NCBI GenBank assembly: GCA_030037995.1 | Contig: JASHPQ010000270.1 | Span: 1-36,411, forward strand | DNA: 36,411 nt | Direction of reading: 5' to 3' | DNA from: Nitrososphaerales archaeon | Lineage (GTDB): Archaea > Thermoproteota > Nitrososphaeria > Nitrososphaerales > CADDZS01 | Part shown: piece after piece, positions 15,503 through 35,929 of the stretch | Layout of the letters: the number at the start of each line of letters is the position of its first letter | Numbering within the stretch: position 1 is the first letter of the stretch | The notes under the pieces: generated by a model | Seen by the model: the letters and a program-made list of their open reading frames with translations, nothing else | Databases searched by the model: none | Told to the model about the DNA's origin: nothing | Program-made: the position numbers and the translations under genes

Positions 15503-15523
15503 CTGTTGATTGTCGCCTGCCAG

Positions 15524-18611: not shown

Positions 18612-18710
18612 TTCTCCATGTTAAAATGACTAACCCGTATTACCCCAATATGATCCAGCAATAATAATGGCCAAGTTATTGAAGACTGATTGCTGCATCT
18701 CAGAAAATTC

Positions 18711-19745
18711 TCATTGAGGACCGGGATCTGCTCGGACTTCCATTTCTTTCAACTGAGACTTCAACGACTCCAAGTAAGTATTGAGACCAAGTTCAATCGG
18801 GTACCTGGGGAGGAATCCGAGTTCTCTGACAATGCGAGAAATATCTGCATAGCTTTGTCTGACGTCCCCCTCCCTTGGAGGCAAGTACTCAATCGGCAAC
18901 GAAACCGTTTCTCCCAGAAGGATTTTGCTCTCTAGCCTGGCGAGTTTTTCGATAGTACATTCAATTCCGGTACCAACATTGTAAATTTTCCCGGAAGAGA
19001 TTGAACCTGAGGCAGCCAAAATATTGGCTTGAACAATGTCTTCGACGTAAACAAAATCTCTCGAATTTTTCCCGTCACCGTAAATGACTGGACTTTTCCT
19101 TTGAGAAATTCTCTCGGCAAACCTGTTTATTACTCCGCTGTATTCCTTTGCCGAAGACCTTGGTCCGTATACATTGAAGTTTCTCAGAATGACAATGCCA
19201 AAATCGTATTTCTGATGATAATCTTTACAATGTCCTTCTCCTTCCAATTTGCTCCACCCATAAGGCGATATCGGAGATGGCTTCGAGCTCTCAGATCTTG
19301 GGAGTTCTTTCGAGTCGCCGTAGACTGCCGCACTAGATGCAAAAATGAATTTCTTGACTCCCGAATCGGACGCGCACTTCAACAGATTTTGAGTGCCCTC
19401 AAGATTAACACGTCTGGTGAGCTCCGGTTCGATGATGCTCTTCTGTACACTTACTATTGCTGCTTCGTGAAAAACTACTTCAATATCCCTCAGCTCCTGT
19501 TTTATGAATTGAGAATCACAAATGTCTCCCCTTCGTATATTCAATCTGGAACCAGCAGTCTTTTGCACGCCGCTTAGATTGCTGAGCTTCCCTGAGGAAA
19601 AGTCGTCGACAACGTGTACGTTACAACCATTTTTGACGAGAGCGTCTACAATGTGACTACCAATGAATCCAGCTCCTCCTGTTATTAGGACTCGATGCCA
19701 GGGAAATTTCTCAATTATCCGAGCTCGAATTTCTCGTCTTTCCAA
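18711..19745 (-). CDS. NAD-dependent sugar epimerase/dehydratase (UDP-glucose 4-epimerase-like)
   Basis: Extended SDR family, 344 residues, TTG 19745 start. GGAGFIG at 23-29 binds NAD, ASSAAVYG at 136-143 carries the catalytic Ser/Thr, and Y162-x3-K166 (YGWSK) is the catalytic pair. RNFNVYGPR and YGDGKNSRDFVYVEDIV are typical of GalE-like and WbpP-like enzymes. It probably interconverts a UDP-hexose or UDP-N-acetylhexosamine epimer, supplying a donor for the GT4 enzymes downstream. It is the first gene of the minus-strand operon, and a 99-nt gap separates it from the deacetylase. Substrate cannot be read with confidence. Confidence 0.9.
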   Translation of the reverse strand: MERREIRARIIEKFPWHRVLITGGAGFIGSHIVDALVKNGCNVHVVDDFSSGKLSNLSGVQKTAGSRLNIRRGDICDSQFIKQELRDIEVVFHEAAIVSVQKSIIEPELTRRVNLEGTQNLLKCASDSGVKKFIFASSAAVYGDSKELPRSESSKPSPISPYGWSKLEGEGHCKDYHQKYDFGIVILRNFNVYGPRSSAKEYSGVINRFAERISQRKSPVIYGDGKNSRDFVYVEDIVQANILAASGSISSGKIYNVGTGIECTIEKLARLESKILLGETVSLPIEYLPPREGDVRQSYADISRIVRELGFLPRYPIELGLNTYLESLKSQLKEMEVRADPGPQ

Positions 19746-19987
19746 AAGCCAGTTCCCAATTAAATCGAACTTGAAAAGCTTGGTATTTATCCGTATTATT
19801 AGAGGGAGGATAAATGTACGAGTTTTGATGTCCTAGATCAGTATCCCGTTTACGCGATGAGACATCTGATTGACCGCCGATGTCACACTGGAAATGATTT
19901 TCCGTTCCTTTCTTATGAAGAGAAGCATGTGAAAATATCCGCTCCACTTCTCGAAGATTGGGATCGGACAATTTCATGATGTGAATT
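19746..19987. other. Intergenic region upstream of the epimerase gene
   Basis: This 242-nt gap separates the epimerase from the next GT4, both on the minus strand. A T/A-rich stretch near 19785-19802 (ATTTATCCGTATTATTAG on the plus strand, CTAATAATACGGATAAAT on the minus) could be the promoter of the epimerase operon. A frame of 88 codons spanning 19711-19977 on the minus strand has unconvincing composition and overlaps the epimerase start. Confidence 0.35.
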
Positions 19988-21139
19988 TCAGTTCAAAGAG
20001 GATCTGAGAATATCCAATGTTCTTTCAGACACTCGAGACCAAGAGTACTTTTGTTCGATACTGATCGCAGCTTTTGTACCTAGAGAAGCAGCGAAATCAG
20101 GTGAATCTCGAATCGATATTATCGCTTTCACGAAACCTGCTGTATCCTTAGGTGAGACGAGAATACCATTCTCAAGGTCTGTAATATAATCTCTTACTCC
20201 TGGAATGTTCGAAGCCACTACTGGTTTTCCACATGCCATCGCCTCAGACACAGATAAACCTGGAGCTTCCTCATAGGATGGAAGAATAAATGCGTCGCAC
20301 ATTTTGTAATAGTGATGAATCTCGTCGTGTGATACATATGGGATGAATAAGACATTCTTCGCAATCCCGTAACTTATTGCTCGCTCATGTAATTGGGGTT
20401 CGATAGGACCACGACCTATGAGAAAGAGCTTAGTGTTGGGATCTCGTTTGACAAGCTCACGAATTACTTCCAATAAGTCAAACATACCTTTAGAGTGCAC
20501 TAGACGAGACACACAAAGAATCTTCAAAACGCGCTCGTCGTTGATACCGATTTTGTGGGCTTCTGAAAGGCTATCATAGTTTGTATTGAACAGATCCGTA
20601 TCGACACCAAACGGAATGATCGTAACAGACAAATTCTTGTTTAGACACAGAAGATATCTTTTAGCTTCATCCGTGGGAACGATGGCGGAAACTGCGTAAT
20701 CACAAATGGAACGGGAATAAAATCGTTCGACGAGTTTGAAAGCGACATTATAAGGAAAGAGTGATGGCGCTTGGTAAAGGTCATGACGGAGCACTAATGG
20801 GATCCCATGCCTCTTGGCAAAATTCATCGCGGTGTTGGAGTAGAACTGGTATGCGTCTTCCGTCATGATTATGTCAAATGGACTCTCTCTTTTCAGTGCG
20901 ATATCAAGACCCTGCATGAAGGGGATGTTGGCGATCACACGGCTCGTGCCAACTTTACAGAGATTGAATGGGTGGTCATAAGTGTCGTCCTTCCAAACTG
21001 TTGGCGGTTTCTTCCGGCCGTATTTGTCCGAGGTAAAGAAAGTCAGATCAACTCCGAGACGCCCTAAACCGCGAGCTAGATAGTAAGTGTTCATGCCCAT
21101 TTCGGGAACGTAAAAGTTTGTGATGAAAGCGAGTTTCAC
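19988..21139 (-). CDS. Glycosyltransferase family 4
   Basis: GT-B fold, 383 residues, GTG start at 21139 overlapping the upstream membrane gene's stop as GTGA. Hallmarks: MKLAFITNFYVPEMGMNTYYLARGL (N-terminal loop), TIIPFGVDTDLF, ILCVSRLVHSKGMFDLLEVI, FLIGRGP, and the donor-site E-x7-E in SYEEAPGLSVSEAMACGKPVVAS. The E-x7-E is canonical, unlike the enzyme at 14324. It likely adds one sugar of the glycan. Position next to a flippase-like pair suggests that the lipid-linked product is made here and then moved across the membrane. Confidence 0.9.
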   Translation of the reverse strand: MKLAFITNFYVPEMGMNTYYLARGLGRLGVDLTFFTSDKYGRKKPPTVWKDDTYDHPFNLCKVGTSRVIANIPFMQGLDIALKRESPFDIIMTEDAYQFYSNTAMNFAKRHGIPLVLRHDLYQAPSLFPYNVAFKLVERFYSRSICDYAVSAIVPTDEAKRYLLCLNKNLSVTIIPFGVDTDLFNTNYDSLSEAHKIGINDERVLKILCVSRLVHSKGMFDLLEVIRELVKRDPNTKLFLIGRGPIEPQLHERAISYGIAKNVLFIPYVSHDEIHHYYKMCDAFILPSYEEAPGLSVSEAMACGKPVVASNIPGVRDYITDLENGILVSPKDTAGFVKAIISIRDSPDFAASLGTKAAISIEQKYSWSRVSERTLDILRSSLN

Positions 21140-21498
21140 GAAGACAGCAACACCGAGCCAACGACAATTAAGACTGCACCTATAACCTGATTGCGGGTGA
21201 ACTTTTCGCCTAACCTATAATTAGCAATGATCAGAACAACGTTACCGAAGTAAAGGAAGAACTGACCTTTGCCGACACCCATGATCGCCTGAATGTAGTA
21301 CGTCACAAAAACGTTGGCGAGAGCGACAGCAAGAATGATGATGAAGTATCTCGAGAATGTCAGCTTCCAAAGGAACGGAAGATTGAGCTGAAATTGTCCA
21401 ATGGAAACTTGTACCTTCTTCCAGCAGATGGCATTCAGCACTGTGAACGCACATGCCATAGCATTAGAAATCCAGAGACTAATGAAGATCAGAGTCAT
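21136..21498 (-). CDS. Four-helix EamA/SMR-like membrane protein, second of a pair (ArnF-like)
   Basis: The 120-residue protein has four membrane segments and begins at ATG 21498, which overlaps the previous stop as ATGA. The end GEKFTRNQVIGAVLIVVGSVLLSS is typical of half-size EamA/DMT transporters and closely mirrors the end of its neighbour (NERFDPIQILAIVLIFAGSILVSS). Half-size pairs of this kind include ArnE/ArnF, which flip a lipid-linked aminosugar in bacteria. A role in flipping a polyprenyl-linked sugar is inferred from pairing and context; small-molecule export is the alternative. Confidence 0.7.
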   Translation of the reverse strand: MTLIFISLWISNAMACAFTVLNAICWKKVQVSIGQFQLNLPFLWKLTFSRYFIIILAVALANVFVTYYIQAIMGVGKGQFFLYFGNVVLIIANYRLGEKFTRNQVIGAVLIVVGSVLLSS

Positions 21499-21902
21499 TC
21501 GACTGGCCTACTGGAAACAAGAATTGAACCTGCGAAAATGAGAACAATCGCGAGAATCTGGATTGGGTCGAAACGCTCATTCAGACCAAAGTAAACTACA
21601 ATGATAACTACGATTGCACCTGTGTGATAAAACAGCGCAGACTTTGCCATGCCAATCTTTGCGATGGCATAATAACCAAATAGAACGCTGGCGAATCCTG
21701 ACGACAAAGTGATCCAGAAAAAGACGTTCGAGACCATAGCGAGTATGAACGATCCCGTGAATCGAAACAGCCCAACGTTCCTGATGAGATATCCCCACGC
21801 AAGCGTGTTGATTGCAACGAGAAGACATTGAAAACCGTTGGATAGCCACAACAGAGTCGTTGTCTTATGTTTGTTCGCCACGACAGTCATGACTCCATCC
21901 AC
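21495..21902 (-). CDS. Four-helix EamA/SMR-like membrane protein, first of a pair (ArnE-like)
   Basis: This half-size DMT-superfamily protein has four membrane segments and homology at its C-terminus to the protein encoded immediately downstream. The annotated 135 residues use GTG 21902; an ATG at 21890 is almost as good. The stop overlaps the next ATG, so the pair is probably made in equal amounts and may form a heterodimer. Loop residues KSALFYHTGAIVVIIVVYF suit a lipid or metabolite exporter. The upstream neighbour is a decayed membrane-protein gene. Confidence 0.7.
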   Translation of the reverse strand: MDGVMTVVANKHKTTTLLWLSNGFQCLLVAINTLAWGYLIRNVGLFRFTGSFILAMVSNVFFWITLSSGFASVLFGYYAIAKIGMAKSALFYHTGAIVVIIVVYFGLNERFDPIQILAIVLIFAGSILVSSRPVE

Positions 21903-22368
21903 TTATCCAGCAACATTCTAACAGTGACCTTATGTTCCTTTTAGAAGTGATGTAGAGAACTTCATCGTATGCTAAAAGAATCGCGTATGCAAACCAGAAA
22001 CCGTAGAAGAGATACCAACCATTGAGTCACAGCCCGAGGCGAAGTGGAAGATGGTATAGAAGATTTTCTCACGCCATTTGTTTCGTGTTCTGTGGGGCGT
22101 TTGGATAATGTAGCACACTATCTCGTATCCTACCAATCAGTACGACAGCAATGAAGGAAAAAGAAAACAGATCCGAAAACGCATACACTGGAACCACACA
22201 AGCCAGTAATTCTTCAATCAAAGGAAAGGCACAAGCATAGGTCTAGTACTACCGTTTCATCGAACGTGTGTCTGTTTCTGGGTTTATTCTGAAAACATCA
22301 GACACTATGACAAAGGGTCGCCAAGCCGTAGAGCCTATATATTGTAGGCCAAGAAGAATGAGACTCAT
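21903..22368 (-). pseudogene. Decayed membrane-protein gene (possibly a glycosyltransferase C-terminus)
   Basis: The minus strand holds coding-like sequence in different frames. It starts at ATG 22368, overlapping the tandem methyltransferase stop as ATGA: MSLILLGLQYIGSTAW, then FVIVSDVFRINPETDTRSMKR and a stop. After two stops the same frame resumes as FPLIEELLACVVPVYAF, SDLFSFSFIAVVLIGRIRDS and VLHYPNAPQNTKQ, then stops. The next frame continues as WREKIFYTIFHFASGCDSM, and another as NGWYLFYGFWFAYAILL and AYDEVLYITSKR. Read together these make a membrane protein with two or three hydrophobic stretches, broken by about four frameshifts or stops. The aromatic/hydrophobic C-terminal pattern could be from a processive GT2, but I am not sure. 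Alternatively it is a chance mosaic, which the sustained composition makes less likely. Confidence 0.5.
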
Positions 22369-23729
22369 TTTTTCACCATGAAGAATAGTTCGTTGCCGAT
22401 GGGGCTCAGGAATCCAAGACGGCACTGGTAAGAGTCAGGTATAGATAGGCCGGTCGTGAATGATCGTAGTACGCGTGCATGGCAATCGGTCAGTACATGT
22501 TCGAAATACTTTATCGTGTAACGCTTCCCGAAGTACTCTTGGTGTCGAGCTCCGTTGTCACGCCGTCTGGCGGAACGAAACATAGAGAGAAGAATGAAAG
22601 GCGACAAAAGATTGGGAACAGAGATAAGCGCCGGACCGCTACAGACTCGTAAGTGCTCATGAACGGCGAGTGCAGTTTCAGGAAAGTGTTCAACCGTTCC
22701 AAGAGAAAAGACCGAATCGAATACATCGTCTCTAAAGGGTAAGTAGCGCGCATCTGCCACGATAATTTCTCGATTCCATTTTTTCCGTGCATAGGCGGCA
22801 ATTTGCCTGTCCAAGTCCACTCCAACATATTCAGAGTCGCAATACACCTGCGACCAACGACCAGGACCGCTACCGACTTCAAGATTCACACGACCATGTA
22901 TTGAACGCAAGATGGTCGAGATACGTCTTTCAAAGTCGGTATCGAGAGTGACACTGAAAATGCTCTTGTCATCACAATAAGTCTGAGGACCCGAAGCAGT
23001 GTCCTGTTGCGTCTTGTAAGCATATACAAGATACTCATTCCCAAATATCCAATCAAGAGTGTCCAACTTTGATTCCAGGATGGCGGGCAATGGAATGCCC
23101 ACAGTCTTGAACCATAAGATTTTGAGAGATGCAGCTTGAAGCTGTTTTCTAGTCCAAGATACGTCGTGACGTTCTGCATCTCTCTTACCCAGCAGGATGC
23201 CATATAGAGAACGCGATCGTAGAACCGTGGACAGGAAGGCACCAGACGGTTTCAGGACACGGGACGACTCGGTGATACATCTGTCAGCACCTGGGAAAGA
23301 GCCAACAACTTGTATCGAATAAACAGAATCAAAGATACCATTGCGGAACGGTAGGTAACGAGCATCCGCACAGACAAGATTGTGATACCCTGGGTGAAAT
23401 GTCTTAACTCTCTGACAGTTCTCGAAGATGATATCTACGCCTATCACTTCGGAATGCTTTTCAGAGTAGGGCATCCATCGACCAACCCCGCATCCCAGAT
23501 CTAGAGAAGCTCCTGGAGGAAGAGCCTCGACTGCAGCGATTATCTGTTTATGGTACCGTCTGTTCGCAGTGGGTTTTGGTTGAAGGTCTACGGCAGACCA
23601 GACCTCACGAACCGTTCGCGACTCAGTTGTAGAGAATTGGCCTCGCCTTTGCTGAAAAATACGATGAATTGCGGTGGGTACCTCACCGTTTTTTGCTAAG
23701 CGACAAACAGGTAGGATCCTACGTATCAT
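22365..23729 (-). CDS. Tandem two-domain class I SAM methyltransferase
   Basis: The ORF is open from ATG 23783, but ATG 23729 overlaps the upstream stop as ATGA and is the better start (454 residues). Two complete Rossmann methyltransferase domains lie in one chain. Domain 1: LDLGCGVGR at about 76-84, VIGVDI, ADARYLPFR at 121-129, IQVVGSFP. Domain 2: LEVGSGPGRW at 283-292, VGVDLD, ADARYLPFRDDVFDSVFS at 325-342, GTVEHFPE. Both belong to the methyltransferase 11/UbiE-like group and share ADARYLPFR, so the chain looks like an internal duplication. Domain 1 lacks the acidic/His pair (EH) seen in domain 2 after the GTV/VVG strand. Probable targets are sugar or aglycone hydroxyls; this is inferred from context only. 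Confidence 0.85.
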   Translation of the reverse strand: MIRRILPVCRLAKNGEVPTAIHRIFQQRRGQFSTTESRTVREVWSAVDLQPKPTANRRYHKQIIAAVEALPPGASLDLGCGVGRWMPYSEKHSEVIGVDIIFENCQRVKTFHPGYHNLVCADARYLPFRNGIFDSVYSIQVVGSFPGADRCITESSRVLKPSGAFLSTVLRSRSLYGILLGKRDAERHDVSWTRKQLQAASLKILWFKTVGIPLPAILESKLDTLDWIFGNEYLVYAYKTQQDTASGPQTYCDDKSIFSVTLDTDFERRISTILRSIHGRVNLEVGSGPGRWSQVYCDSEYVGVDLDRQIAAYARKKWNREIIVADARYLPFRDDVFDSVFSLGTVEHFPETALAVHEHLRVCSGPALISVPNLLSPFILLSMFRSARRRDNGARHQEYFGKRYTIKYFEHVLTDCHARVLRSFTTGLSIPDSYQCRLGFLSPIGNELFFMVKK

Positions 23730-24031
23730 TTGCGCCAACTGATCTCCACGGCTATTGATTCGCCCCACGTTCCCCAAGGCCATATCGTCATTTGAATCGT
23801 TTCATGGAATTTGAAAATGCGCCGGTCGTTGAAGACGCTAAAGGGATCAGGAGTCTCAATCAGGCCTTTGGGGTCCATTGAGGCGTACGCGAAGATGTTA
23901 GTTACATAGTAATCGCAGCAATGCTCTTTTGCAATCCTGCGGCTGATAATCTGTGTCGGGTTCTCACTTTGGTTATCGGCGATTGGTGAATTACACCTGA
24001 CGTAATGCGATGGGGGGTCTACTATCAACAA
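23726..24031 (-). CDS. DUF1643-like protein, N-terminally short
   Basis: The 101-residue frame from TTG 24031 contains a clear DUF1643 pattern. SPIADNQSENPTQIISRRIA corresponds to the 'NPS.A....DPT..r' region, YYVTNIFAYASMDPKGL to 'g..vvNLfayratdp..l', and IWPWGTWGES to the final 'v.aWG..G'. The standard DUF1643 protein has about 150-170 residues, and the N-terminal part here is missing. The frame is open only to a TAG at 24055, the stop of the FkbM remnant. ATGA coupling with the methyltransferase suggests that translation still matters. DUF1643 has no assigned reaction and is known mostly from phages and mobile regions; its place in a glycan operon is odd. It may be a truncated relic. Confidence 0.45.
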   Translation of the reverse strand: MLIVDPPSHYVRCNSPIADNQSENPTQIISRRIAKEHCCDYYVTNIFAYASMDPKGLIETPDPFSVFNDRRIFKFHETIQMTIWPWGTWGESIAVEISWRK

Positions 24032-25152: not shown

Positions 25153-27012
25153 TTGATGCAAGTCAAACACAAAAAATCCTTGACGATTTCTATTGTATTA
25201 ACAGCTGTTGCAATTCTTAGAATTCAGACAATATCCAACTTTGCGGCTATAGCTCTGCTAATCGAGACGTCTCTCCTAACAGGACTGCTTCTCCAAAAGT
25301 TGTTCAAATCGAAAGACACTGTACTTTCTACCACCATGGGTTGTTTCGCTGTTTTGATAGTCGTTGGTGGAGTCCTCGGTTCAATCGGAATTCTAACTTT
25401 CAACGCAATTTTGCTCTCCTTAGCTGTCCTATCAATTTCAATCAACTTTATTTCGCTTGAATTTCCTGAAATCGTACGACCAAAAAATTCTGTGTTACCA
25501 ATAGTCCTGATTTCGTCTCTCGGAGTGATCTTGGCTGTTGGACTCAGATACTTTAGCCCATATCCCATTCAAATCGATACTGATGTAACGAAAGAAGCAA
25601 TCAGAATTGGATTTATCGGCAGGAGCGGTGTTGCACCAATATTGCTTCCAGGAGATTTTAGGCCAGTTCTTTACGACACGATGCTCTCGATTGTATCGAT
25701 ACTCATCGGAATTCAAGGATCAGATGTTGTTTGGTATGCAGTTTTTGCGACATTTCCTCTTTATGGGATAGGTATCCTACTTCTCGCCCGCAGATTTTTT
25801 CATGATTGGTTAAGAGCAACTACTTCAGCTTTTTTTGGGTTGTTAATTTGTGGGTTCTGGTACTTAGAAGGGCCCGCTATTGTTCTACCTGAAACATTTG
25901 CGGCCATTGTTACTTTGTATGTGTTAGCATTGTATCTCGATTGGAATCCGACAGGGCTCAAATCCCTTGTAATCTTTATTGCCCTTCTAGTTTTTTTTGA
26001 CATTGGATATTATTATGCAGTAGCTGCAGTTATTCCCTTTGTCGGATTCTTACAAATTTGGCCGGTGAGAAGATTGGGAAACAATGTGGGGGTCGCAGTC
26101 CTTCTTGTCACATTAGCGTCGGCCGTGGGTGCGCTCATTCTGTTTGGAAACACGATTGGTTCGCAAATGACCTCGGTTGACCTCTCGTTTGTCGACCAGT
26201 TTATGCTGGCAGCTTACACCCCCCTGCTTTTGTCTTTCATTCTCGTAGGTATTATCTTCACATTGTTCGTTTCGAGGGACAAGGCGTTACTTCCAGTGAT
26301 AGGTTACGGTCTATTCGTACTAGTGATGCTTGTTGTTCCGATTGCCTACACAACTAGAATTGAGATTTTTGGTAGACCGGAACTGGCGATGATGGGCTCG
26401 ATGGGACTAGTCGGAATTGTCTCTTTAGTTTCAAACCGCCAGTCGAGGAAGGGTTTAGCTCTGGTCTGCTTGCTTGTGCTTGTCAGCACGCCAGTCTTGA
26501 TAATGCCATATGAATCCTGGTTCACTGCAACGGTTCAGGTGCCTCCTTGGCACGGTCTCTCGTTGGAAACATTTAGTCTAGACGAAGGAAACGCTGGGTT
26601 GTGGTTAAGAAAAAACGCATCGCAAGGATTCATCATTTCTGATCTCGAAAGCAGCGCGATAATGCAGAGCATTTCAGGCTTGCCAGGCGTGTACAATCCA
26701 ATACTATTCCTTAATAATCTCACGCTTCTGAATCTGACGTACTCAGCTCTCAATTCAAACTCCTCATCAATTTCGAAAAAATATCTTAACCAGATCTCGA
26801 CTCATGAAATTTTCTATTTCGTGATAACTTCAAGGACTGAGGCCAGTATCAAAGAATGGAAGTCGTTGGTTGCCTCGAACAGTTTTACTTTGGATTCAGC
26901 ACAGGACTTGGTCGTAAATTATCCAACTAGCGATCCGCTGCTCCAAGATCCGCTCTTTGGCAATCTCACCCTTGTATACTCAAATCCCACTGCTGAAATT
27001 TACAAGTCCTAA
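25153..27012 (+). CDS. Multi-pass membrane protein, GT-C-like glycosyltransferase or related
   Basis: TTG 25153, with ATG 25156 next; 618-619 residues. About twelve hydrophobic segments fill the first 460 residues. The first large loop after the initial helices is RYFSPYPIQIDTDVTKEAIRIGFIGRSGVAPI, with acidic residues positioned as in GT-C enzymes. A soluble C-terminal part holds GNAGLWLRKNASQGFIISDLES and finally LTLVYSNPTAEIYKS. Domain plan, length and the last 15 residues match the protein encoded at 9162-10994, although overall identity is low. It is alone on the plus strand inside a minus-strand glycan region. Sugar transfer from a polyprenyl-phosphate donor is likely but inferred. Confidence 0.72.
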   Translation: MMQVKHKKSLTISIVLTAVAILRIQTISNFAAIALLIETSLLTGLLLQKLFKSKDTVLSTTMGCFAVLIVVGGVLGSIGILTFNAILLSLAVLSISINFISLEFPEIVRPKNSVLPIVLISSLGVILAVGLRYFSPYPIQIDTDVTKEAIRIGFIGRSGVAPILLPGDFRPVLYDTMLSIVSILIGIQGSDVVWYAVFATFPLYGIGILLLARRFFHDWLRATTSAFFGLLICGFWYLEGPAIVLPETFAAIVTLYVLALYLDWNPTGLKSLVIFIALLVFFDIGYYYAVAAVIPFVGFLQIWPVRRLGNNVGVAVLLVTLASAVGALILFGNTIGSQMTSVDLSFVDQFMLAAYTPLLLSFILVGIIFTLFVSRDKALLPVIGYGLFVLVMLVVPIAYTTRIEIFGRPELAMMGSMGLVGIVSLVSNRQSRKGLALVCLLVLVSTPVLIMPYESWFTATVQVPPWHGLSLETFSLDEGNAGLWLRKNASQGFIISDLESSAIMQSISGLPGVYNPILFLNNLTLLNLTYSALNSNSSSISKKYLNQISTHEIFYFVITSRTEASIKEWKSLVASNSFTLDSAQDLVVNYPTSDPLLQDPLFGNLTLVYSNPTAEIYKS

Positions 27013-28057: not shown

Positions 28058-29041
28058 TCAAGCGAGAGTTTTTCGTTCCAGAATGTTATCTGAGCGAATA
28101 GGCCTTGAACGGACAATCAAGTCAATCGAACTCCTTTCAAGACTCGACATGTTCCTGTCGATTTGATCGACAACTCTTCCAATTGCATGAAGAATCAGGC
28201 CTGTAATGAAAAGTATCAACCCGGATACTAAAAACAAAAATGATAAAATCGCAAATGGCAGACTGAAATATCTTGATGTGACATAATAGTTCACAAGGAT
28301 TGAAAGCATCACGAACCCTATAATCGTAAGCCCTGTGCCGGGCACACTGAGATATCTCAGCGGACTTCTGTAAGCTATGTCTCCCAGTATTGATATCGCA
28401 ACGTCACTAACGTGCCTGAGAGGATGGTGGGTCGATGTGTTGCCATCATATTTCACTGAAACGGGGACCTCCTGCACTCTTAATCCCATTCTGAAGGCTT
28501 CCGCCATCAATTGAGAGTCGATCCCCATCCCCCAGACTAGCGGTTGAAGACTGGCGAGCACCGTAGCCGAATAAGCTCTAAATCCTGATTGAGAATCCTT
28601 TACAAACTCCTTTGACGAGGAAGACTCTGCAGCTTGTTTCGTAAGATTGTTCAAAAAGGCGTTTCCTATTCTTCGATGCCTTGGCATCGAAGTATCGGAG
28701 AGTCTTGATCCGTTAACAACGTCAGCTTTTCCGGACAATATCGGCTGGATCAAAGCTGGGATCTCTGAGGGATCATGCTGACCATCGGCATCGATGGTTA
28801 CGACGATATCCGCATCATTCTCTAGAGCCGCCTTGAATAACGACCTCAGCGCCATCCCCTTCCCCATATTTTTCTCGTGACGAATTACCAGCGCACCAAA
28901 AGAGCTGGATAAATCAAAAGTAAGATCCGTAGAACCATCGTCACAAACAATTATTTTGTCTACTTGGCGCTTGAGCCTGACCAGCAAAGGAGCAATTTTT
29001 TCCTCCTCATTGTACGCTGGAACACAACCGATGATAATCAA
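28058..29041 (-). CDS. Family 2 glycosyltransferase, dolichyl-phosphate sugar synthase type
   Basis: GT-A fold inverting transferase, 327 residues. IIGCVPAYNEEEKIAPLL begins the fold; DDGST at 34-38 and DADGQHD at 84-90 carry the metal- and donor-binding acidic residues; QSGFRAYS is the acceptor region. Two membrane helices near the C-terminus (about 225-290) give the DPMS-like layout, in which a sugar is moved from a nucleotide donor to dolichyl phosphate. The acceptor-phosphate product could feed the GT-C-like enzymes in this window. It lies 23 nt downstream of the sulfoquinovose synthase gene, in the same direction, so the two are probably co-transcribed. Confidence 0.9.
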   Translation of the reverse strand: MIIIGCVPAYNEEEKIAPLLVRLKRQVDKIIVCDDGSTDLTFDLSSSFGALVIRHEKNMGKGMALRSLFKAALENDADIVVTIDADGQHDPSEIPALIQPILSGKADVVNGSRLSDTSMPRHRRIGNAFLNNLTKQAAESSSSKEFVKDSQSGFRAYSATVLASLQPLVWGMGIDSQLMAEAFRMGLRVQEVPVSVKYDGNTSTHHPLRHVSDVAISILGDIAYRSPLRYLSVPGTGLTIIGFVMLSILVNYYVTSRYFSLPFAILSFLFLVSGLILFITGLILHAIGRVVDQIDRNMSSLERSSIDLIVRSRPIRSDNILERKTLA

Positions 29042-29064: not shown

Positions 29065-30285
29065 TCATGTTGAAGGTTTTTCGCTGAAGGAATTCTGTTG
29101 ACTCACTGGCATCGCCGGACCTTTCCCGTCCCACGTAGTGCGTGGCGCGATGACACTTTGTTTCTGCCTAATTCTATCAGTGAACCCTATCAGATCTTCA
29201 AGCATGATATCCAATTCTTGCTCCAAAGTTCTTGTCGGTCTAAACCCGAGCTTTGGTAATCGATGCGCATCGACTTTGTAGTAGTGTTCTTCGGCTTCTT
29301 TCCTCGGGTTGACAGTGTGGTCTAAGGTGACTGAGATGCCCATTCTTCCTGCAGCTCTCTGAACAGCCCTTGCCAGAGTCGTCACGTCGTATACATTTTC
29401 CAGCTGGTTGAAAACTCGATACTCTCCTTTCTCAGGGGGATTCTCGCACGCTATGGCGAGACATTGCAGAGAATCTATGAGGGAAAGAAATCCCCGCGTT
29501 TGCCCGCCCTTCCCATAAATCGACAGTGGGTAGCCTATAACAGCCTGAGCGCAATAGCGATTGATCACAGTTCCAAATACTTCGTCAAAATCAAATCTCG
29601 TTGCTGTCTCAGGATTTTTCGAAGCGTTTATTTCGTGGGTTCGTGTGCCAAAGAGCACCCCCTGCATGATGTCAGTAGCTCTTAGACCCCAAATCTTGCA
29701 AGTGAGCATTATGTTATGTGTGTCGTGCACCTTACTGGCATGGTAGAAAGATCCGGGCTGACGTGGAAACATCAAATTAGCCTTTTTACCACGGTACTCG
29801 ATATCAAAAAAGCCCTCTGGGATGTCAAGATTGGGCGTCCCATATTCGCCCATGGTACCAAGTTTAACCAAATGAGCCTCGGGGCTATAATCTCTCATAG
29901 CAAATAGCAAATTCAAAGTGCCGAGAACATTGTTTTGTTGAGTGTAGAACGCATGGGTTGCATCAATCATACTATACGGTGCGGACGGCATTTCACCCAG
30001 ATGAACAATTGTGTCGGGCCTATTTCGTTTCAAAACTCCTGTGAGAAAATCAAAATCGAGAATATCTCCTTCAATAAAGGATACTTTGCCAGGGTAAAGT
30101 CGATCGGCGACGCTTAAACGATCCGACATACTCAAGATGGGAATTGCCGACCAACTACCAACTTCTTCGACGTGTCTCCTTCGAGAAAAATTATCAATCC
30201 CACTGACAGTGATTCCTTTTGCCGCTAGGTGAAGGGAGAGGCCCCATCCTATGTAACCGTCCATCCCGAGGATGAGGACGTTCAT
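29065..30285 (-). CDS. agl3: UDP-sulfoquinovose synthase (SQD1/Agl3 family)
   Basis: This enzyme makes UDP-sulfoquinovose from UDP-glucose and sulfite. The 406-residue extended SDR has GMDGYIG at 7-13 for NAD. Catalytic Thr144, in the family signature KLGTMGEYGTPNLDIPEG, and the Y181-x3-K185 pair in SFYHASKVHDTHNI sit one residue from those of the plant enzyme (Thr145, Tyr182, Lys186). LRATDIMQGVLFG and RFDFDEVFGTVINRYCAQA are family-specific. The C-terminus is somewhat longer than usual. In Sulfolobus acidocaldarius Agl3 provides the sulfosugar of the S-layer N-glycan. Here the S-layer gene is its divergent neighbour. The start is ATG 30285, almost leaderless from the TATA box at 30312-30319. 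Confidence 0.95.
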   Translation of the reverse strand: MNVLILGMDGYIGWGLSLHLAAKGITVSGIDNFSRRRHVEEVGSWSAIPILSMSDRLSVADRLYPGKVSFIEGDILDFDFLTGVLKRNRPDTIVHLGEMPSAPYSMIDATHAFYTQQNNVLGTLNLLFAMRDYSPEAHLVKLGTMGEYGTPNLDIPEGFFDIEYRGKKANLMFPRQPGSFYHASKVHDTHNIMLTCKIWGLRATDIMQGVLFGTRTHEINASKNPETATRFDFDEVFGTVINRYCAQAVIGYPLSIYGKGGQTRGFLSLIDSLQCLAIACENPPEKGEYRVFNQLENVYDVTTLARAVQRAAGRMGISVTLDHTVNPRKEAEEHYYKVDAHRLPKLGFRPTRTLEQELDIMLEDLIGFTDRIRQKQSVIAPRTTWDGKGPAMPVSQQNSFSEKPST

Positions 30286-30311
30286 GCTGGGAAGCGGTGC
30301 GCGAAAAATGC

Positions 30312-30319
30312 TATATAAA
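30312..30319 (-). promoter_or_regulatory. TATA box of the sulfoquinovose synthase operon
   Basis: On the minus strand the sequence TTTATATA is centred about 30 nt before the ATG at 30285. Archaeal TATA boxes lie about 26-28 nt before the transcription start, so the mRNA should be leaderless or have a leader of only a few nucleotides. No Shine-Dalgarno precedes the ATG, which agrees. Confidence 0.6.
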
Positions 30320-30552
30320 TTGAGTCTGTTGTGAATAGTTTTCGCTCAATCAGCCCGGGAGTTTTTTAGGCCTAGATACGACAAAACTTTGGCCTTGAGG
30401 CTCGAATTTTTTCGAGAATAGTGAAGTTGTCTAATGAAGTCTGAAATTCCTTACAGTCTCAATCTCAATAAGTACTGAGAATACAGAACGAGAGCCCTAA
30501 CAAAATCTCATTTGTCTGGGCCGTACTTTCAACACGGATCTCCCTTATGGAA

Positions 30553-30571
30553 AAGATATAAATATAAAAAA
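30553..30571 (+). promoter_or_regulatory. TATA box of the S-layer gene
   Basis: AAGATATAAATATAAAAAA contains two overlapping TATA-like blocks. A start of transcription 26-28 nt downstream falls at about 30586-30592, 6-12 nt before ATG 30598. This makes ATG 30598 the likely start and places the GTG at 30580 upstream of the mRNA. The rest of 30320-30552 is A/T-rich with no gene. Confidence 0.55.
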
Positions 30572-30597
30572 CTAGTTTCGTGACTTTTGAAAGCTCT

Positions 30598-33500
30598 ATG
30601 AACTATCTTAAAGACACTACAAGACTATCCGTGCTAGTAGTAGCTTTTCTACTAGTCGGCAGCGCTTTCGCGTTTTTACCCGCTTTCGCTGCAACAGGCG
30701 GAGCGCGGACAAATACAGCCAATCCAGACTGCGCTACTCCATGTGTGAACAACTCTAGCCCCCCAACGGTGGGAGGGTACCCTTATGTCATCCAGGGAGG
30801 CGTCACCGTGGATACGGCTCCTTACACATCTGTCACTGGAGCTACCACATTTGGAGTTAACGTAACGAATCCTGCCTCTAACGCGTTCGCTATAACGTCG
30901 ATTACGATTATAGCACCGGCTGCGAGTGTGGGCTTTTCGTTTGCAGGAACTCCGACTTGCGGTACTACAACCACTACCGGCAATAATGAATTGCTAGATA
31001 ATGTCGGTGCGTATTCCTCCAGTGCGGTTCAATGTACATCTGGGACTGGAGCTGGCCTTCCCCCAGGATTCAGTACCATCATTCACTTGGGTGCGTTGAT
31101 AGGCCCAGCAGTTGCTGATAGTGCTACACCCACTCAGGGAACATTCACAAGTCTGGTCGTTGACTCTAGCGGTACGGGAGAATCGTACGCGGGCGGCTCT
31201 TTCGTCGAATATTCGATTGCCCCAGCTACGATTACTGCAGTGGACCTGTCAATTTCACCGGCGACAACCTATACAGCTGGTGGTGCAGCGATCACAGTCA
31301 CTGCTGACCTAAGTTCTGGTGAAGTAGGAGTCCCGCTAGTTTTCAGCTTCCCCTCTTCATACAGTCCAGTATCAGCGTACGGGAGGACATTCACTAGCAC
31401 ATTATCGCCGTCTTCTACGCTGTCATCTGGAGCCACTACAACGACGACTTGGACACCAAGCGACTATGCACTCGAACCCGCTACTGGAATAACTGCAGCA
31501 ATCGGTAATGCAGTTTATACAGACTCTTCTGATCTGAGTGCACTAATAACAACCGTACCTGCAACGCCAAGTGAGGTCTCATTCTACTTTACAATAAGTG
31601 GGACGACTTATGGGACAGATTACTTGACACTCCACACAGAAGTCAGCACGACATACTACGCAGAAGCCGGGACCGAAATCTCATTTTCTCTAGCTGATGC
31701 ATACTCAAATCCGGTCGCGTTCTCGACTGCGGTCACAGGTGTGTCGCTTGTTTCGAGTGGTGGAGATTTGCTCGCAGGCACTACTTTGGATGCCTCACTT
31801 TCCTGCGGAACAGCAGCTACTACATTCAAGTGTCCTACCAGTGGTACCTCATTGGCATTTCCTCTGACATCTGGCACCGGAGTCGCTGACTATGTCAACT
31901 ATGTCCAGGGTTCGCTGTACGGAACAACCTCAACAGTCTCTGCAACAATAACAACCTCCACGGGATCCTATACGGGTACGAGTGGAAGCATTATCACATC
32001 AACACTTGATCCCACACTTGCTGCACCAGCGGTTTTCAACGAGACCCTCAATGCGCAGACGCCCCTCACAACTCATTGTGGAGATGTATGTGGCGACGGT
32101 GTCGTGCAGGCAGGCAACCAAATATACGTTGTCCAGACTTTGACTCCCATTGCCCAAGAAGGAGTTCCAATCACGTTGAACTTCTGTCCAGCATGTTCTG
32201 GGACATCCGCCGGATACGACGGTGGTATTTCGGGCTTCATAGTCTCTGAGACACTCTATACAAACAGCAGCGGCATCGTGCAAGAGAAAGAACCCGCTAA
32301 CATCACCATCGGGGCAACCGCACAGTTCAATGACACCATGGCCGCGCCAGAAACGACGGACACCACAAACACGATAGCCGGCAGTGGTCTCTCAATAGCC
32401 ATGTTGACAACCGTCGGATCAATTGCCACGCTAAAAATCAATGTGGCAGCAAACACGTCTCCCTTGACAGGACCTAACGTCAAATATTCGGCCCCCAGCG
32501 CAACAAATTACGTCGCGATTGCGTATGCAGATTCCTATGGAAACCTGATTCCAGTAGCAGATGCACCAGCAGTTCAAACCCAGATAGCCCTCAGCGCCAC
32601 ATCAGGCGCTTTGCTCAGCGCGACAAACGTCTACATTGGAGCGAACACCGTAGCGACCAACATTAGCGTTACCGGTCCACCCGCTGGCACCGCCTTCGGC
32701 GAAATCGAATTGACGATGCCCAGTACTGTAGGAACAACGGTCACATTGACTGCGACAGGAGTCGTTAGCGGCGTGAGCGTAGTTGGAACTGCAAGCCTTA
32801 CAACAGTCTCCGATTCGCCGACGATCAGCGTCACTTCACCTCTCCCAATCAAAACAACCATCTACAGCAGCGCTTTAGAAACAATATTCAAAGGAACAGC
32901 CAATGCGTCCATAGGCCTTCCCAGCACCGACATTGTATCCATCGGGTACCAAGTCGGAACCGGAACATGGGAATCGGTCGCAACTGCAGCACTCCACAAC
33001 GTGACCTGGTCCATCCCCATCATCCTCACTGAGGGTCTGAACACGGTCACTTTCAACGCAACAGACAATGAGTCGCCGGCAGTAACCACTGTCAGCAGTC
33101 CATTCACAGTCCTAGTTGACACTACGACGCCAACATTCAGTGCCATGAAGGTAGCGAGCAGCGGAGCAACCGTAGACCTCAACGTCACGTCTGCGGAAGG
33201 CGATCTCAACGCGAGCTCGGTAGTGGCCTGGTATAACGGAACAGCAATTCCATCGAGTGCCATCACAGTGACAGGTACCAACAATCCGGGATCGAGCGTA
33301 GTCTATTCGGTTGCAATCAATCCTCCGGTCATAGGAACTTGGTCACTCGAGGTAAGTGCGACCTCTCTCGCTGGATTGACTGGAACGACCACAGCTACAA
33401 TCACCACAACATCTACCACCGTAGTACCACCCTCCACAACGTTCTCATTCCCAGCGCCTACCTCATGCACGATCGGCACTTACAACGCCGTTTGCGTGTC

Positions 33501-33738
33501 ACTCTCCAACTCACAGACTACCTCCGAAACGGGAGTTGTCTTCGCTGTATTGCACAACGCAGCTGGAGCAACAATCGAAGTTGCCACATCTACTGTCACA
33601 GTGGCAGGTCTTGGGTCTCAGGTTGGATACGTGGTCGTGAACGTTCCGGCAGGAACATACTCGGTCAATGTCTTCGTGTGGTCAACGACTGGAGCAGCAA
33701 TCTCCGCACCGCAAACTGTGTCCATAACCGTCGCTTAG
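30598..33738 (+). CDS. S-layer-like secreted surface protein
   Basis: 1046 residues from ATG 30598 (GTG 30580 would add six). A signal peptide is clear: positively charged start, hydrophobic FLLVGSAFAFLPAF, then an AxA-type cleavage after FAA. The mature chain is Ser/Thr/Ala/Val/Gly-rich, of low Lys content, with many beta strands, several Ig-like repeats and numerous NxS/T sequons, as in archaeal S-layer glycoproteins. Cysteines come in close pairs (for example PDCATPC and FCPAC), suggesting disulfides. GDVCGDGVVQAGN in the middle resembles a dockerin/EF-hand loop with Cys in place of one ligand. There is no membrane anchor, so it probably needs the stalk protein encoded 20 nt downstream. 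It is a likely target of the sulfoquinovose glycan; function is inferred from composition and context. Confidence 0.8.
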   Translation: MNYLKDTTRLSVLVVAFLLVGSAFAFLPAFAATGGARTNTANPDCATPCVNNSSPPTVGGYPYVIQGGVTVDTAPYTSVTGATTFGVNVTNPASNAFAITSITIIAPAASVGFSFAGTPTCGTTTTTGNNELLDNVGAYSSSAVQCTSGTGAGLPPGFSTIIHLGALIGPAVADSATPTQGTFTSLVVDSSGTGESYAGGSFVEYSIAPATITAVDLSISPATTYTAGGAAITVTADLSSGEVGVPLVFSFPSSYSPVSAYGRTFTSTLSPSSTLSSGATTTTTWTPSDYALEPATGITAAIGNAVYTDSSDLSALITTVPATPSEVSFYFTISGTTYGTDYLTLHTEVSTTYYAEAGTEISFSLADAYSNPVAFSTAVTGVSLVSSGGDLLAGTTLDASLSCGTAATTFKCPTSGTSLAFPLTSGTGVADYVNYVQGSLYGTTSTVSATITTSTGSYTGTSGSIITSTLDPTLAAPAVFNETLNAQTPLTTHCGDVCGDGVVQAGNQIYVVQTLTPIAQEGVPITLNFCPACSGTSAGYDGGISGFIVSETLYTNSSGIVQEKEPANITIGATAQFNDTMAAPETTDTTNTIAGSGLSIAMLTTVGSIATLKINVAANTSPLTGPNVKYSAPSATNYVAIAYADSYGNLIPVADAPAVQTQIALSATSGALLSATNVYIGANTVATNISVTGPPAGTAFGEIELTMPSTVGTTVTLTATGVVSGVSVVGTASLTTVSDSPTISVTSPLPIKTTIYSSALETIFKGTANASIGLPSTDIVSIGYQVGTGTWESVATAALHNVTWSIPIILTEGLNTVTFNATDNESPAVTTVSSPFTVLVDTTTPTFSAMKVASSGATVDLNVTSAEGDLNASSVVAWYNGTAIPSSAITVTGTNNPGSSVVYSVAINPPVIGTWSLEVSATSLAGLTGTTTATITTTSTTVVPPSTTFSFPAPTSCTIGTYNAVCVSLSNSQTTSETGVVFAVLHNAAGATIEVATSTVTVAGLGSQVGYVVVNVPAGTYSVNVFVWSTTGAAISAPQTVSITVA

Positions 33739-33758
33739 AATTCGGTGAGTACATCACA

Positions 33759-34451
33759 ATGCAAGCACTGAATTCTACGAGCGAAACTCGCAAGCGCTTG
33801 GTCGTCACAGGAATAGGAGTGCTAATGGCATTCCTATTTCTGGCACCGTTTACGGCCTTCGCTGCTACAACATACACAGTCACCATAACCAGTCCCACGG
33901 CCGGAGCCCTTGTCAAATCCGGTACGCCAATCACCGTTTCAGGCACGGTATCGCCGGCCCCAACGAGCAGTTCAACTTACATCGCGATCTCCATCGTGGA
34001 GCCTAATGGACAGCTCGCAGACGCAAACGAGTTTCCAGTAGCCACAAGTACAGGGGCCTTCAGTGGCACGTTCACACCAGGTCCGTCGTATTCTGTGAAC
34101 GGCACGTACACTGTCAACGTCAACTATGACAATGCTTTAGCATCGGTCTCGTTCACATACGGCAGCAGCGTCACGTCCTCAAGCGTGACGGGCGTGACCA
34201 CAACCGTCTCTGCATTTACGACCACAACCGTCTCTGCATTTACGACCACAACCGTCACTGCGGTAGTTGCTCCGGTAACCACTGTCATCTCGACTGGCAC
34301 CACGGTAATAACTACCGTCAGCAGCATAACGACCGTCATCTCCAGTTCGGTCGCAAGTGACGCGACTGCACTCGCAATAGGAGCGGTCGGCGTAATCATC
34401 GCTATCATTGCAGCTGTGCTAGCAGTACTAGCAATGCGCAAGAAAAAGTAA
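33759..34451 (+). CDS. SlaB-like membrane-anchored stalk protein
   Basis: 230 residues. ATG 33759 has GGTGAG at 33744-33749, nine nt upstream; an open frame further upstream runs inside the S-layer gene and is not used. Signal-like segment at 15-36, a beta domain at 38-135 (an Ig-like or CARDB-type fold), a Thr/Ser/Val-rich stalk at 136-200, one membrane helix at 203-226, and a basic KKK tail. This plan (signal, folded domain, glycosylated stalk, C-terminal anchor) is that of the small S-layer subunit SlaB in Sulfolobales and similar proteins elsewhere. The stalk contains a 24-nt tandem repeat. Its position after the S-layer gene suggests that it holds the lattice to the membrane. Confidence 0.75.
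   Translation: MQALNSTSETRKRLVVTGIGVLMAFLFLAPFTAFAATTYTVTITSPTAGALVKSGTPITVSGTVSPAPTSSSTYIAISIVEPNGQLADANEFPVATSTGAFSGTFTPGPSYSVNGTYTVNVNYDNALASVSFTYGSSVTSSSVTGVTTTVSAFTTTTVSAFTTTTVTAVVAPVTTVISTGTTVITTVSSITTVISSSVASDATALAIGAVGVIIAIIAAVLAVLAMRKKK
34197..34257 (+). repeat. 24-nt tandem repeat in the stalk coding sequence
   Basis: The unit ACCACAACCGTCTCTGCATT followed by TACG occurs at 34197-34220 and 34221-34244, identical, and starts again at 34245 with a few changed bases. It encodes the eight-residue unit TTTVSAFT. Exact identity between copies suggests recent slippage, so the stalk length could vary between strains. Confidence 0.9.
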
Positions 34452-34483
34452 CTACAATAAAAAGCTAAAACGTAATTGAATAA

Positions 34484-34545
34484 GAATGGGAAAAAACACC
34501 ATTTTTATTCTCCCCATTCTCTTTCCTTTTTTTGTTGTCTTCTGG
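34484..34545 (+). terminator. Terminator after the stalk gene
   Basis: GAATGGG (34484-34490) pairs with CCCATTC (34513-34519) across a 22-nt A/T-rich loop, followed by long T-rich runs (CTTTCCTTTTTTTG and beyond, to about 34560). It lies 33 nt after the stop codon, fitting a terminator for the S-layer and stalk operon. Confidence 0.7.
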
Positions 34546-34633
34546 GTTTTTTTGTTATTGGTGTTTGTTTTCCTTGATTTCTACTACCTAAAGCTGAATA
34601 GTTAGAAACTGCCTCAATGGATGTGGTTTTTTC

Positions 34634-35929
34634 TTGAACGGACGCGGTAAGCTAATCTTGATGGCGGTGATCGGGATTTTGGTCGCAGCCGCCATAATCG
34701 GTGTAATATCTTTCCTGCCCATACCGCCTGGCGGGCCGTCTACCGTCACTTCAAGAATTACGTCAACGAGCACGACCGTTTCCACGACCGTCTATACTTC
34801 CACGAAGATTTCGAGCTCCACGGCTCCGCATGGGACTCTGGCCACCCAGATCGCTGACCTCCTCAGCCTGCCGTCGGGAGTCACACGCGTCTATGTGCAA
34901 TATTCCGACATTGAAGTCCACACAAGTATTGCAGGTTCTTCGATATGGGTCACAGCTGCCCCCGAGGAGGACGTGGATCTCGAGGCCCTCTCGAATGACG
35001 GAGTCACGGTGGGCGTCGCGAGCATACCTTCGGGAACTTATGATGCGGCCCGCTTCACCATAAACTCGGCAATCGTGACTTTTGAGGGAAAGAACATCAC
35101 CGCCATCCTCCCGGAAACTTCGATCTCGGTTCCCATAGCGAGTAGCGGCATCGACCTTCTACCGAACGCCACTTCCGGCCTGCTCTTCGACATCGCGCCA
35201 TCCATAATTCCTACCCCGTCAGCGAACGGCACCCAGATCGAGCTGCTGCCGTACGCGGAGGCGTTGGCGATCCCATCCAGCGTTCCACCCACGCAATATG
35301 CCCGGATAGGCTCGGTCATCCCGCTTGCTTCTCAGCCGTGGTTCACGAGCACGCAGGTGAACTTGGCTGATAAGCTGACGGTGCTCGCCGCGCTTGTTAC
35401 CAACAACGCCCTGCTGCTTGTAGTGAAAAATACCGGAAATGCCAGTGTCACGATCAACGGACTGTCCCTCCTGGTGCCTAGTGCGTCGAGCTCCAGCCTG
35501 GAAACGCAAACGATAGTTACGACCGTGACCACCGTGACAACCATAACAACGGTACTTCAGAACTCCTCTGCAAAAGCTCCGGCTCACGATTCGAGCAAGG
35601 ATGTGAAAAGTTACAAAGCCCTGGCGAACGCGCCGCAGTCAACGGCGTCATTATCCGGATATCAGACCGTCGCAAGTTTCCTAGTTCTGAGCGACGGAGA
35701 AGTGGTGCAACCCTCTATCAGTGTGAATGCGCAGGAGCTGGGGCTAGTGCTCTCCCCCGGGCAAAACGCCTCCCTCACGTTCATCGGAAAGATACAGACT
35801 CTGAACTCTCTCTCCGAGCCGTACTCGACCCTCCAGATAGTGCCTGGCGCGCAGTACCTCATCGAAGTGCAGGGGCCCTTCGCGCAGGCCGAGGACCTCA
35901 ACGTCTCGGCGGTTGCCCCGTTTTACTAA
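34634..35929 (+). CDS. DUF4382 surface protein with N-terminal membrane anchor
   Basis: 431 residues from TTG 34634. One N-terminal membrane segment (7-28), a Thr/Ser linker (35-65), then a DUF4382 domain from about 67: ADLLSLPSGVTRVYVQYSDIEVHTS, and later VDLEALSNDGVTVGVASIPSGTYDAARFTI, both diagnostic of the family (conserved 'IEVH' and 'I.aGtY...R..i' patterns). A second beta-rich region follows, a Thr/Val linker at about 295-315 (TTVTTVTTITTV), and a C-terminal beta domain. The DUF4382 family is extracellular and function-unknown. A terminator-like hairpin separates it from the stalk gene, so it is probably transcribed separately. It may bind the cell-surface layer, which is inference. 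Confidence 0.8.
   Translation: MNGRGKLILMAVIGILVAAAIIGVISFLPIPPGGPSTVTSRITSTSTTVSTTVYTSTKISSSTAPHGTLATQIADLLSLPSGVTRVYVQYSDIEVHTSIAGSSIWVTAAPEEDVDLEALSNDGVTVGVASIPSGTYDAARFTINSAIVTFEGKNITAILPETSISVPIASSGIDLLPNATSGLLFDIAPSIIPTPSANGTQIELLPYAEALAIPSSVPPTQYARIGSVIPLASQPWFTSTQVNLADKLTVLAALVTNNALLLVVKNTGNASVTINGLSLLVPSASSSSLETQTIVTTVTTVTTITTVLQNSSAKAPAHDSSKDVKSYKALANAPQSTASLSGYQTVASFLVLSDGEVVQPSISVNAQELGLVLSPGQNASLTFIGKIQTLNSLSEPYSTLQIVPGAQYLIEVQGPFAQAEDLNVSAVAPFY

Follow-up and report, generated by a model that had tools for sequence, protein, structure and literature searches.

To our knowledge, SlaA, the large canopy protein of two-component S-layers, has been reported only from the Sulfolobales until now. 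In these archaea slaA and slaB are adjacent genes (PMC5744192), and the proteins that they encode build an S-layer of two components, a large, beta-rich secreted canopy protein and its partner SlaB (PMC10903991, PMC5744192). SlaB homologues are also reported in most Nitrososphaerota, and in ammonia oxidisers of this phylum a minor SlaB homologue occurs beside the S-layer protein NmSLP (PMC11153153). In Sulfolobus acidocaldarius the gene agl3, which gives the precedent for a sulfosugar in an S-layer glycan (PMC4388408), is reported to be scattered from the other N-glycosylation genes (PMC8993221), and the UDP-SQ synthase of deep Thaumarchaeota has been treated as related to sulfolipids (PMC10640624).

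The stretch of DNA analysed here, called the window below, comprises 36,411 nucleotides (contig C50) from the draft genome of a Nitrososphaerales archaeon that has not been cultivated (3.3 Mb, 87.7% complete, 5.2% estimated contamination). The closest relatives in the SQD1 scan are the Nitrososphaerales MAGs JOPF010 and JOPF014, matching G003 and G007, which belong to the same family (f1) as the window genome. The part of the window from 9.1 to 36 kb is best read as a cell-surface locus, in which a surface-glycan island, with sugar-nucleotide enzymes, GT4s, a GT2 and a GT-C, has a two-gene SlaA/SlaB-type S-layer operon at its right-hand border. A previous interpretation of this DNA, made from its letters alone and called the sequence-only reading hereafter, had described five genes, all of which are present in the arrangement given: an SQD1-like gene and a GT2 gene on the minus strand, and genes for a large S-layer-like protein, a SlaB-like anchor and a DUF4382 protein on the plus strand. 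It had proposed that they form a dedicated locus for a sulfosugar and its S-layer target. The explanation preferred here, at a probability of about 0.55, is that the island and the S-layer operon adjoin each other, that the evolutionarily supported glycan link of the S-layer is a GT-C glycosyltransferase gene, and that the adjacency of the SQD1-like gene and slaA marks their junction in one genome.

The SlaA-like protein (30598..33738, plus strand, 1046 aa) has a signal sequence, is rich in beta/Ig structure and contains few Lys and Arg residues. It shares 27-40% identity with tandem homologues in other genomes, for example 33% over about 1000 aa with that of G055. The gene for the SlaB-like anchor (33759..34451, plus strand) follows after 20 bp, and its product combines a signal sequence, one Ig-like domain, a Thr/Val-rich stalk and a C-terminal membrane helix. 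Tandem slaA/slaB homologues occur in at least 12 other Nitrososphaerales genomes, and slaB lies directly downstream of slaA in nearly all loci whose contig continues; in most loci of another family, f10, a sugar nucleotidyltransferase gene comes after slaB. The homologues of SlaB share a signal sequence, a stalk that forms a coiled coil and a C-terminal helix with almost no variation, and they carry either one or two Ig-like domains. Their family profile gave S. acidocaldarius SlaB (8qox_B) as the best of 177,635 PDB sequences (E 4.4e-5, with a strong composition bias), while the window protein searched alone gave no such SlaB match. The sequence-only reading of these two genes as S-layer protein and anchor is thus borne out by the tandem synteny and by the top PDB match of the SlaB profile, and the S-layer identity of the operon is well supported at the level of sequence. 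Homology identifies the smaller protein as SlaB. The larger one is SlaA by its architecture and its position, as a large, secreted and beta-rich protein encoded directly upstream of slaB, and a lattice on the cells is predicted.

Searches with the SlaA profile (A3) gave no match in the PDB up to E 10 and detected no homology to Sulfolobales SlaA. No specific Pfam match was found either, and the AlphaFold model, which is all-beta, matched only generic Ig strings in Foldseek (TM about 0.1). SlaA matches were found in 29 of 300 genomes of the order; the full-length ones are almost all in f10, and full-length slaA was not found in the other eight f1 genomes. Moreover, N-X-S/T sequons are not enriched in the protein over shuffled sequences (16 vs 12.7). 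The missing PDB and Pfam matches, the sequon count and the f1 relatives without full-length slaA were all counted against the preferred explanation.

The third plus-strand gene (34634..35929) encodes a secreted or anchored DUF4382 protein (PF14321, 31.3 bits). It had been placed in the S-layer operon, of which the slaA/slaB pair is indeed compact, but a T-rich gap of 182 bp separates slaB from the DUF4382 gene, so the compact operon has two genes and the DUF4382 gene is probably a separate transcript. Its homologue in G001 (L093) adjoins a protein with the C-terminal domain of SlaA.

Compared with the Sulfolobales, the order slaA-slaB and the large canopy protein are shared, and SlaB, which is detectable by profile, has in common the signal sequence, one or more beta domains, a coiled coil and the C-terminal membrane helix. 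The Nitrososphaerales SlaA-like protein, however, is not detectably homologous to its counterpart, the Nitrososphaerales SlaB family differs in having one or two beta domains within a length of about 230-400 aa, and the window SlaB carries a short Thr/Val-rich stalk in place of a clear coiled coil. With the ammonia oxidisers (PMC11153153) the window shares Ig-rich S-layer proteins and SlaB homologues, but differs in that slaB stands directly behind the large protein. No full-length member of the window-type SlaA family turned up in the families of ammonia oxidisers that were sampled.

The start of slaA is more likely ATG 30598 than GTG 30580, because the TATA-like ATATAAATATAAAA (30556..30574, plus strand), an A/T-rich putative TATA box read from the sequence, lies just upstream of it and because the homologues begin with MNTYTNAYY or MYTPTNAYQ. 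On the other side, the SQD1-like gene starts with ATG at 30285, and TTTATATA (30312..30319, minus strand) stands 27 nt before this codon as a putative TATA box of the leaderless type; it has a single exact match in the 36-kb window, where 0.49 is expected by chance. With these two starts the intergenic region is 312 bp long and has a TATA-like box on either side. The divergent layout across one intergenic region, as given in the sequence-only reading, is therefore real, and the two boxes would act as promoters. A sigma-70 promoter scan was uninformative, the host being an archaeon.

The SQD1/Agl3-like NDP-sugar enzyme (29065..30285, minus strand, 406 aa) scores 565.6 bits against the NCBIfam model for UDP-sulfoquinovose synthase (NF041015), whose equivalog cutoff is 575, and its best PDB match is Arabidopsis SQD1 (1qrr, E 1.4e-121), so the call to the SQD1 family holds. 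In Agl3, alanine at His95, Arg101, Met145, Tyr182 or Lys186 abolished activity (PMC4388408). According to the alignment, the window enzyme keeps the equivalents of Agl3 His95, Thr144, Met145, Glu147, Tyr148, Ser180, Tyr182 and Lys186, but the Arg of the Agl3 motif A-E-Q-R-S-A-P, whose placement is evident from the published primers (PMC4388408), is Pro100. It had been stated that every key SQD1/Agl3 residue is present; this is true of the other essential residues and not of this Arg. Pro was found at the position in the window enzyme, in 18/18 close relatives examined (16 archaeal, 2 bacterial) and in two haloarchaeal sequences, and Arg or Lys in 51/51 of the remaining aligned SQD1-family sequences. 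The window enzyme shares with the Agl3/SQD1 UDP-sulfoquinovose synthases similarity over the full length, the Tyr-Lys pair of SDR enzymes and the majority of the catalytic residues, and differs from them in this Pro and in its separate clade.

The Arg-to-Pro change calls the exact SQD1 reaction into question. The Pro-type enzyme might be a related one of the UDP-glucose 4,6-dehydratase type, which adds another nucleophile or releases a 5,6-ene/4-keto sugar and is no sulfoquinovose synthase. The replacement of an Arg whose alanine mutant R101A is inactive and the score just under the equivalog cutoff are in favour of it, as is the lack of a detected PAPS reductase (a sulfite source) in the draft genome at 87.7% completeness. 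However, the eight residues listed above are kept, and the Pro-type genes of G059, G029, G216, G030 and G435 exceed the NF041015 cutoff, so this chemistry is considered rather unlikely. The Arg-to-Pro change and the undetected PAPS reductase were also set against the preferred explanation.

In the SQD1 tree the window enzyme groups with that of G003 (100/100) among Nitrososphaerales sequences, apart from Sulfolobales Agl3 and from a plant, rhizobial and actinobacterial group. In a first tree Arabidopsis SQD1 had a long branch and fell within the Nitrososphaerales group, from which it moved out when rhizobial, actinobacterial and haloarchaeal sequences were added. Placement with sulfolipid synthases, which the sequence-only reading had named as telling against its proposal, was looked for, and the enzyme sits with Nitrososphaerales enzymes. 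The same grouping with a member of f1 disfavours a contaminant contig, although the contamination estimate of the MAG is 5.2%. In addition, six archaeal sequences form a clade (type B) distinct from that of the window, and genes for a GT4 and an MFS transporter come after the type B genes, an operon that looks more lipid-like; G007 carries both types. The present data thus split the SQD1 family. For the window enzyme, we infer that the product is used in a glycan.

The gene for a GT2 glycosyltransferase of the AglJ/DPM class with C-terminal membrane helices (28058..29041, minus strand, PF00535 2e-23) follows the SQD1-like gene after 23 bp, and the two are probably co-transcribed. It had been taken as a dolichyl-phosphate sugar synthase type, which stands at the level of the AglJ/dolichyl-phosphate class; the score against the AglJ/dolichyl-phosphate sugar synthase equivalog model is 135 bits, below the cutoff of 325, and the assignment is one of GT2 class only. 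In a dedicated locus as originally proposed, the SQD1-like enzyme would supply a sulfosugar for the glycan of the adjacent S-layer protein from adjacent divergent promoters. The divergent region with its two boxes, the GT2 gene directly after the SQD1-like gene, the precedent of Agl3 and one gene of the STT3 family (AglB-like) in the draft genome all agree with this. It was also correctly noted that the locus is organised unlike that of S. acidocaldarius with its scattered agl3. The survey of SQD1 neighbourhoods for S-layer genes, which had been suggested as a check, nevertheless speaks against the proposal. Among 48 genomes searched and the fetched slaA loci, SQD1 lies beside slaA in the window only; about 15 further slaA loci, of which several are cut by contig ends, have no SQD1 next to them. 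Furthermore, SQD1 was not found in the slaA-bearing genomes G055, G477, G487, G491 and G495, which are 90-99% complete, and slaA was not found in G003 and G007, which carry close SQD1 homologues. Considering also the Arg-to-Pro change and the sequon count, a dedicated locus is improbable. In the preferred explanation the adjacency of SQD1 and slaA marks the meeting point of island and S-layer operon in one genome, and sulfoquinovose on the S-layer of this archaeon is possible but unproven.

The glycan island (12239..23783, minus strand) contains, by Pfam and NCBIfam matches, genes for polysaccharide deacetylases, one of them of the XrtA/EPS-like type, three GT4s, a DegT aminotransferase, a FemAB-like protein, an NDP-sugar epimerase, an EamA-like pair and methyltransferases. 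Between island and GT2 gene lies a second polytopic membrane protein (25153..27012, plus strand), which is GT-C-like by topology alone and has neither a family match nor BLAST similarity to the GT-C enzyme described below. The island may instead use the SQD1 product to make a glycolipid or an extracellular polysaccharide, with the S-layer operon as a mere neighbour. Such a use would suit the XrtA/EPS-like deacetylase, FemAB-like, GT4 and DegT genes, and other Nitrososphaerales SQD1 genes stand in glycan contexts without slaA. Near SQD1 in relatives, epimerases, GT2s or a CARDB-type secreted protein (Nitrosotalea-like) are found, and in Thermoplasmata and Sulfolobales nucleotidyltransferases. 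On the other hand, neither a polymerase nor an export system was recognised in the window, and the type B clade already resembles a lipid-type operon; the polysaccharide or glycolipid is accordingly a tentative alternative, though the strongest of those weighed here. A secreted protein of 1821 aa encoded close to SQD1 in G030 was weighed as a possible S-layer protein and rejected, since it gave no S-layer match and just a weak one to alpha-2-macroglobulin.

At the far end of the island, 20 kb from slaA, lies the gene for a GT-C membrane glycosyltransferase (9162..10994, minus strand), which the earlier outline of the locus left out while covering the SQD1 and S-layer genes; this distance was likewise counted against the preferred explanation. 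Its model (pLDDT 67) matched STT3, DPY19 and AglB folds in Foldseek, with OST and DPY19 structures on top. The enzyme is thus like STT3/AglB and DPY19 in its GT-C fold, a likeness at fold level only, and differs in having no match to the STT3 Pfam family (PF02516) and in belonging to a family found only in the slaA-bearing genomes of the sample. Homologues were detected in 11/17 slaA-positive vs 0/15 slaA-negative genomes (Fisher p 1e-4, a value that overstates independence, since the sample consists of related genomes, two of them nearly identical). A homologue of roughly 600 aa is divergent from slaA in G529/G511, G505 (both slaA copies), G501, G446 and G517, and one lies near slaA in G481 and G495 as well. 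Moreover, a secreted protein with a domain of the SlaA C-terminal type (11075..12133, minus strand; SlaA profile match at 11090-11431, E 9.7e-9) is encoded 80 bp from the GT-C gene, and its homologue adjoins the GT-C gene in G491 (L196). In the preferred explanation the glycan link of the S-layer that evolution supports is therefore this GT-C gene and not SQD1, as judged from gene distribution. A more specific version, in which a two-component S-layer has its own STT3-like GT-C enzyme for the modification of SlaA, or of proteins that have the C-terminal domain in common with it, and, in the window genome, uses a sugar of altered chemistry from the Pro-type SQD1, is conjectural and unlikely as a whole.

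Going by architecture and homology, the canopy would consist of SlaA-like subunits, and the SlaB-like protein, anchored through its C-terminal helix, would serve as a stalk. The SQD1-like enzyme would turn UDP-glucose into a product modified at position 6, with UDP-sulfoquinovose as the most likely one, and the GT2, judging by its class, would probably charge a polyprenyl phosphate with a sugar. GT-C enzymes or the AglB of the genome could then use the charged sugar outside the membrane, with SlaA as one plausible acceptor.

The slaA-slaB-like gene pair, conserved in another family of the Nitrososphaerales, would take the S-layer of SlaA/SlaB type beyond the earlier reports, and the supply of a sulfosugar is not the defining feature of such loci. 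The division of the SQD1 family by the Arg-to-Pro change cautions against annotating every member in the Nitrososphaerota as a sulfolipid or sulfoquinovose enzyme. Finally, the GT-C enzyme that co-occurs with slaA is a concrete candidate for a dedicated enzyme of S-layer glycosylation.

In eight loci (L160, L162, L163, L164, L166, L169, L170 and L172) a small third gene downstream of slaB, the gene of the SlaB-like anchor, encodes a product of about 80-180 aa with the SlaA C-terminal domain. In addition, a slaB paralogue stands alone on contig C117 of the window's own genome (L174:4205-4921); its stalk is Thr-rich, and it has 41% identity to the slaB of the window. Among the other ORFs of the window, a polytopic protein of 619 aa (25153-27012) is GT-C-like by topology; family searches with this protein gave no match, and BLAST detected no relationship to the STT3/DPY19-like GT-C at 9162. 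Within the glycan island, a single ORF (22365-23783) contains two SAM methyltransferase domains in succession.

The haloarchaeal SQD1-like genes on Haladaptatus and Natrinema plasmids (L191 and L193) likewise have Pro at the position of the essential Arg of Agl3, and are followed by two more NAD-dependent epimerase/oxidoreductase genes. In G007, a same-family relative, the SQD1-like gene (L101:8686-10971) carries about 300-350 extra aa with the reading frame kept, and similar in-frame interruptions of this length occur in four other genomes (G048 C3, G446 C16, G450 C44 and G461 C4). The G007 insert includes a LAGLIDADG domain, which suggests that it is an intein near the active site.

SQD1 is also followed, within 4 bp, by a gene for a 680-aa secreted CARDB/NPCBM-type protein, together with a multi-TM GT2, in L096 and the Nitrosotalea-like L007, L008 and L024; in the genome G029 a homologue of this secreted protein lies 500 bp away from SQD1. 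Second-clade SQD1 genes (L102, L103, L104, L098, L099 and L110) belong to a conserved operon that also encodes a GT4 and an MFS transporter, a candidate sulfolipid-type operon in Nitrososphaerales and their relatives.
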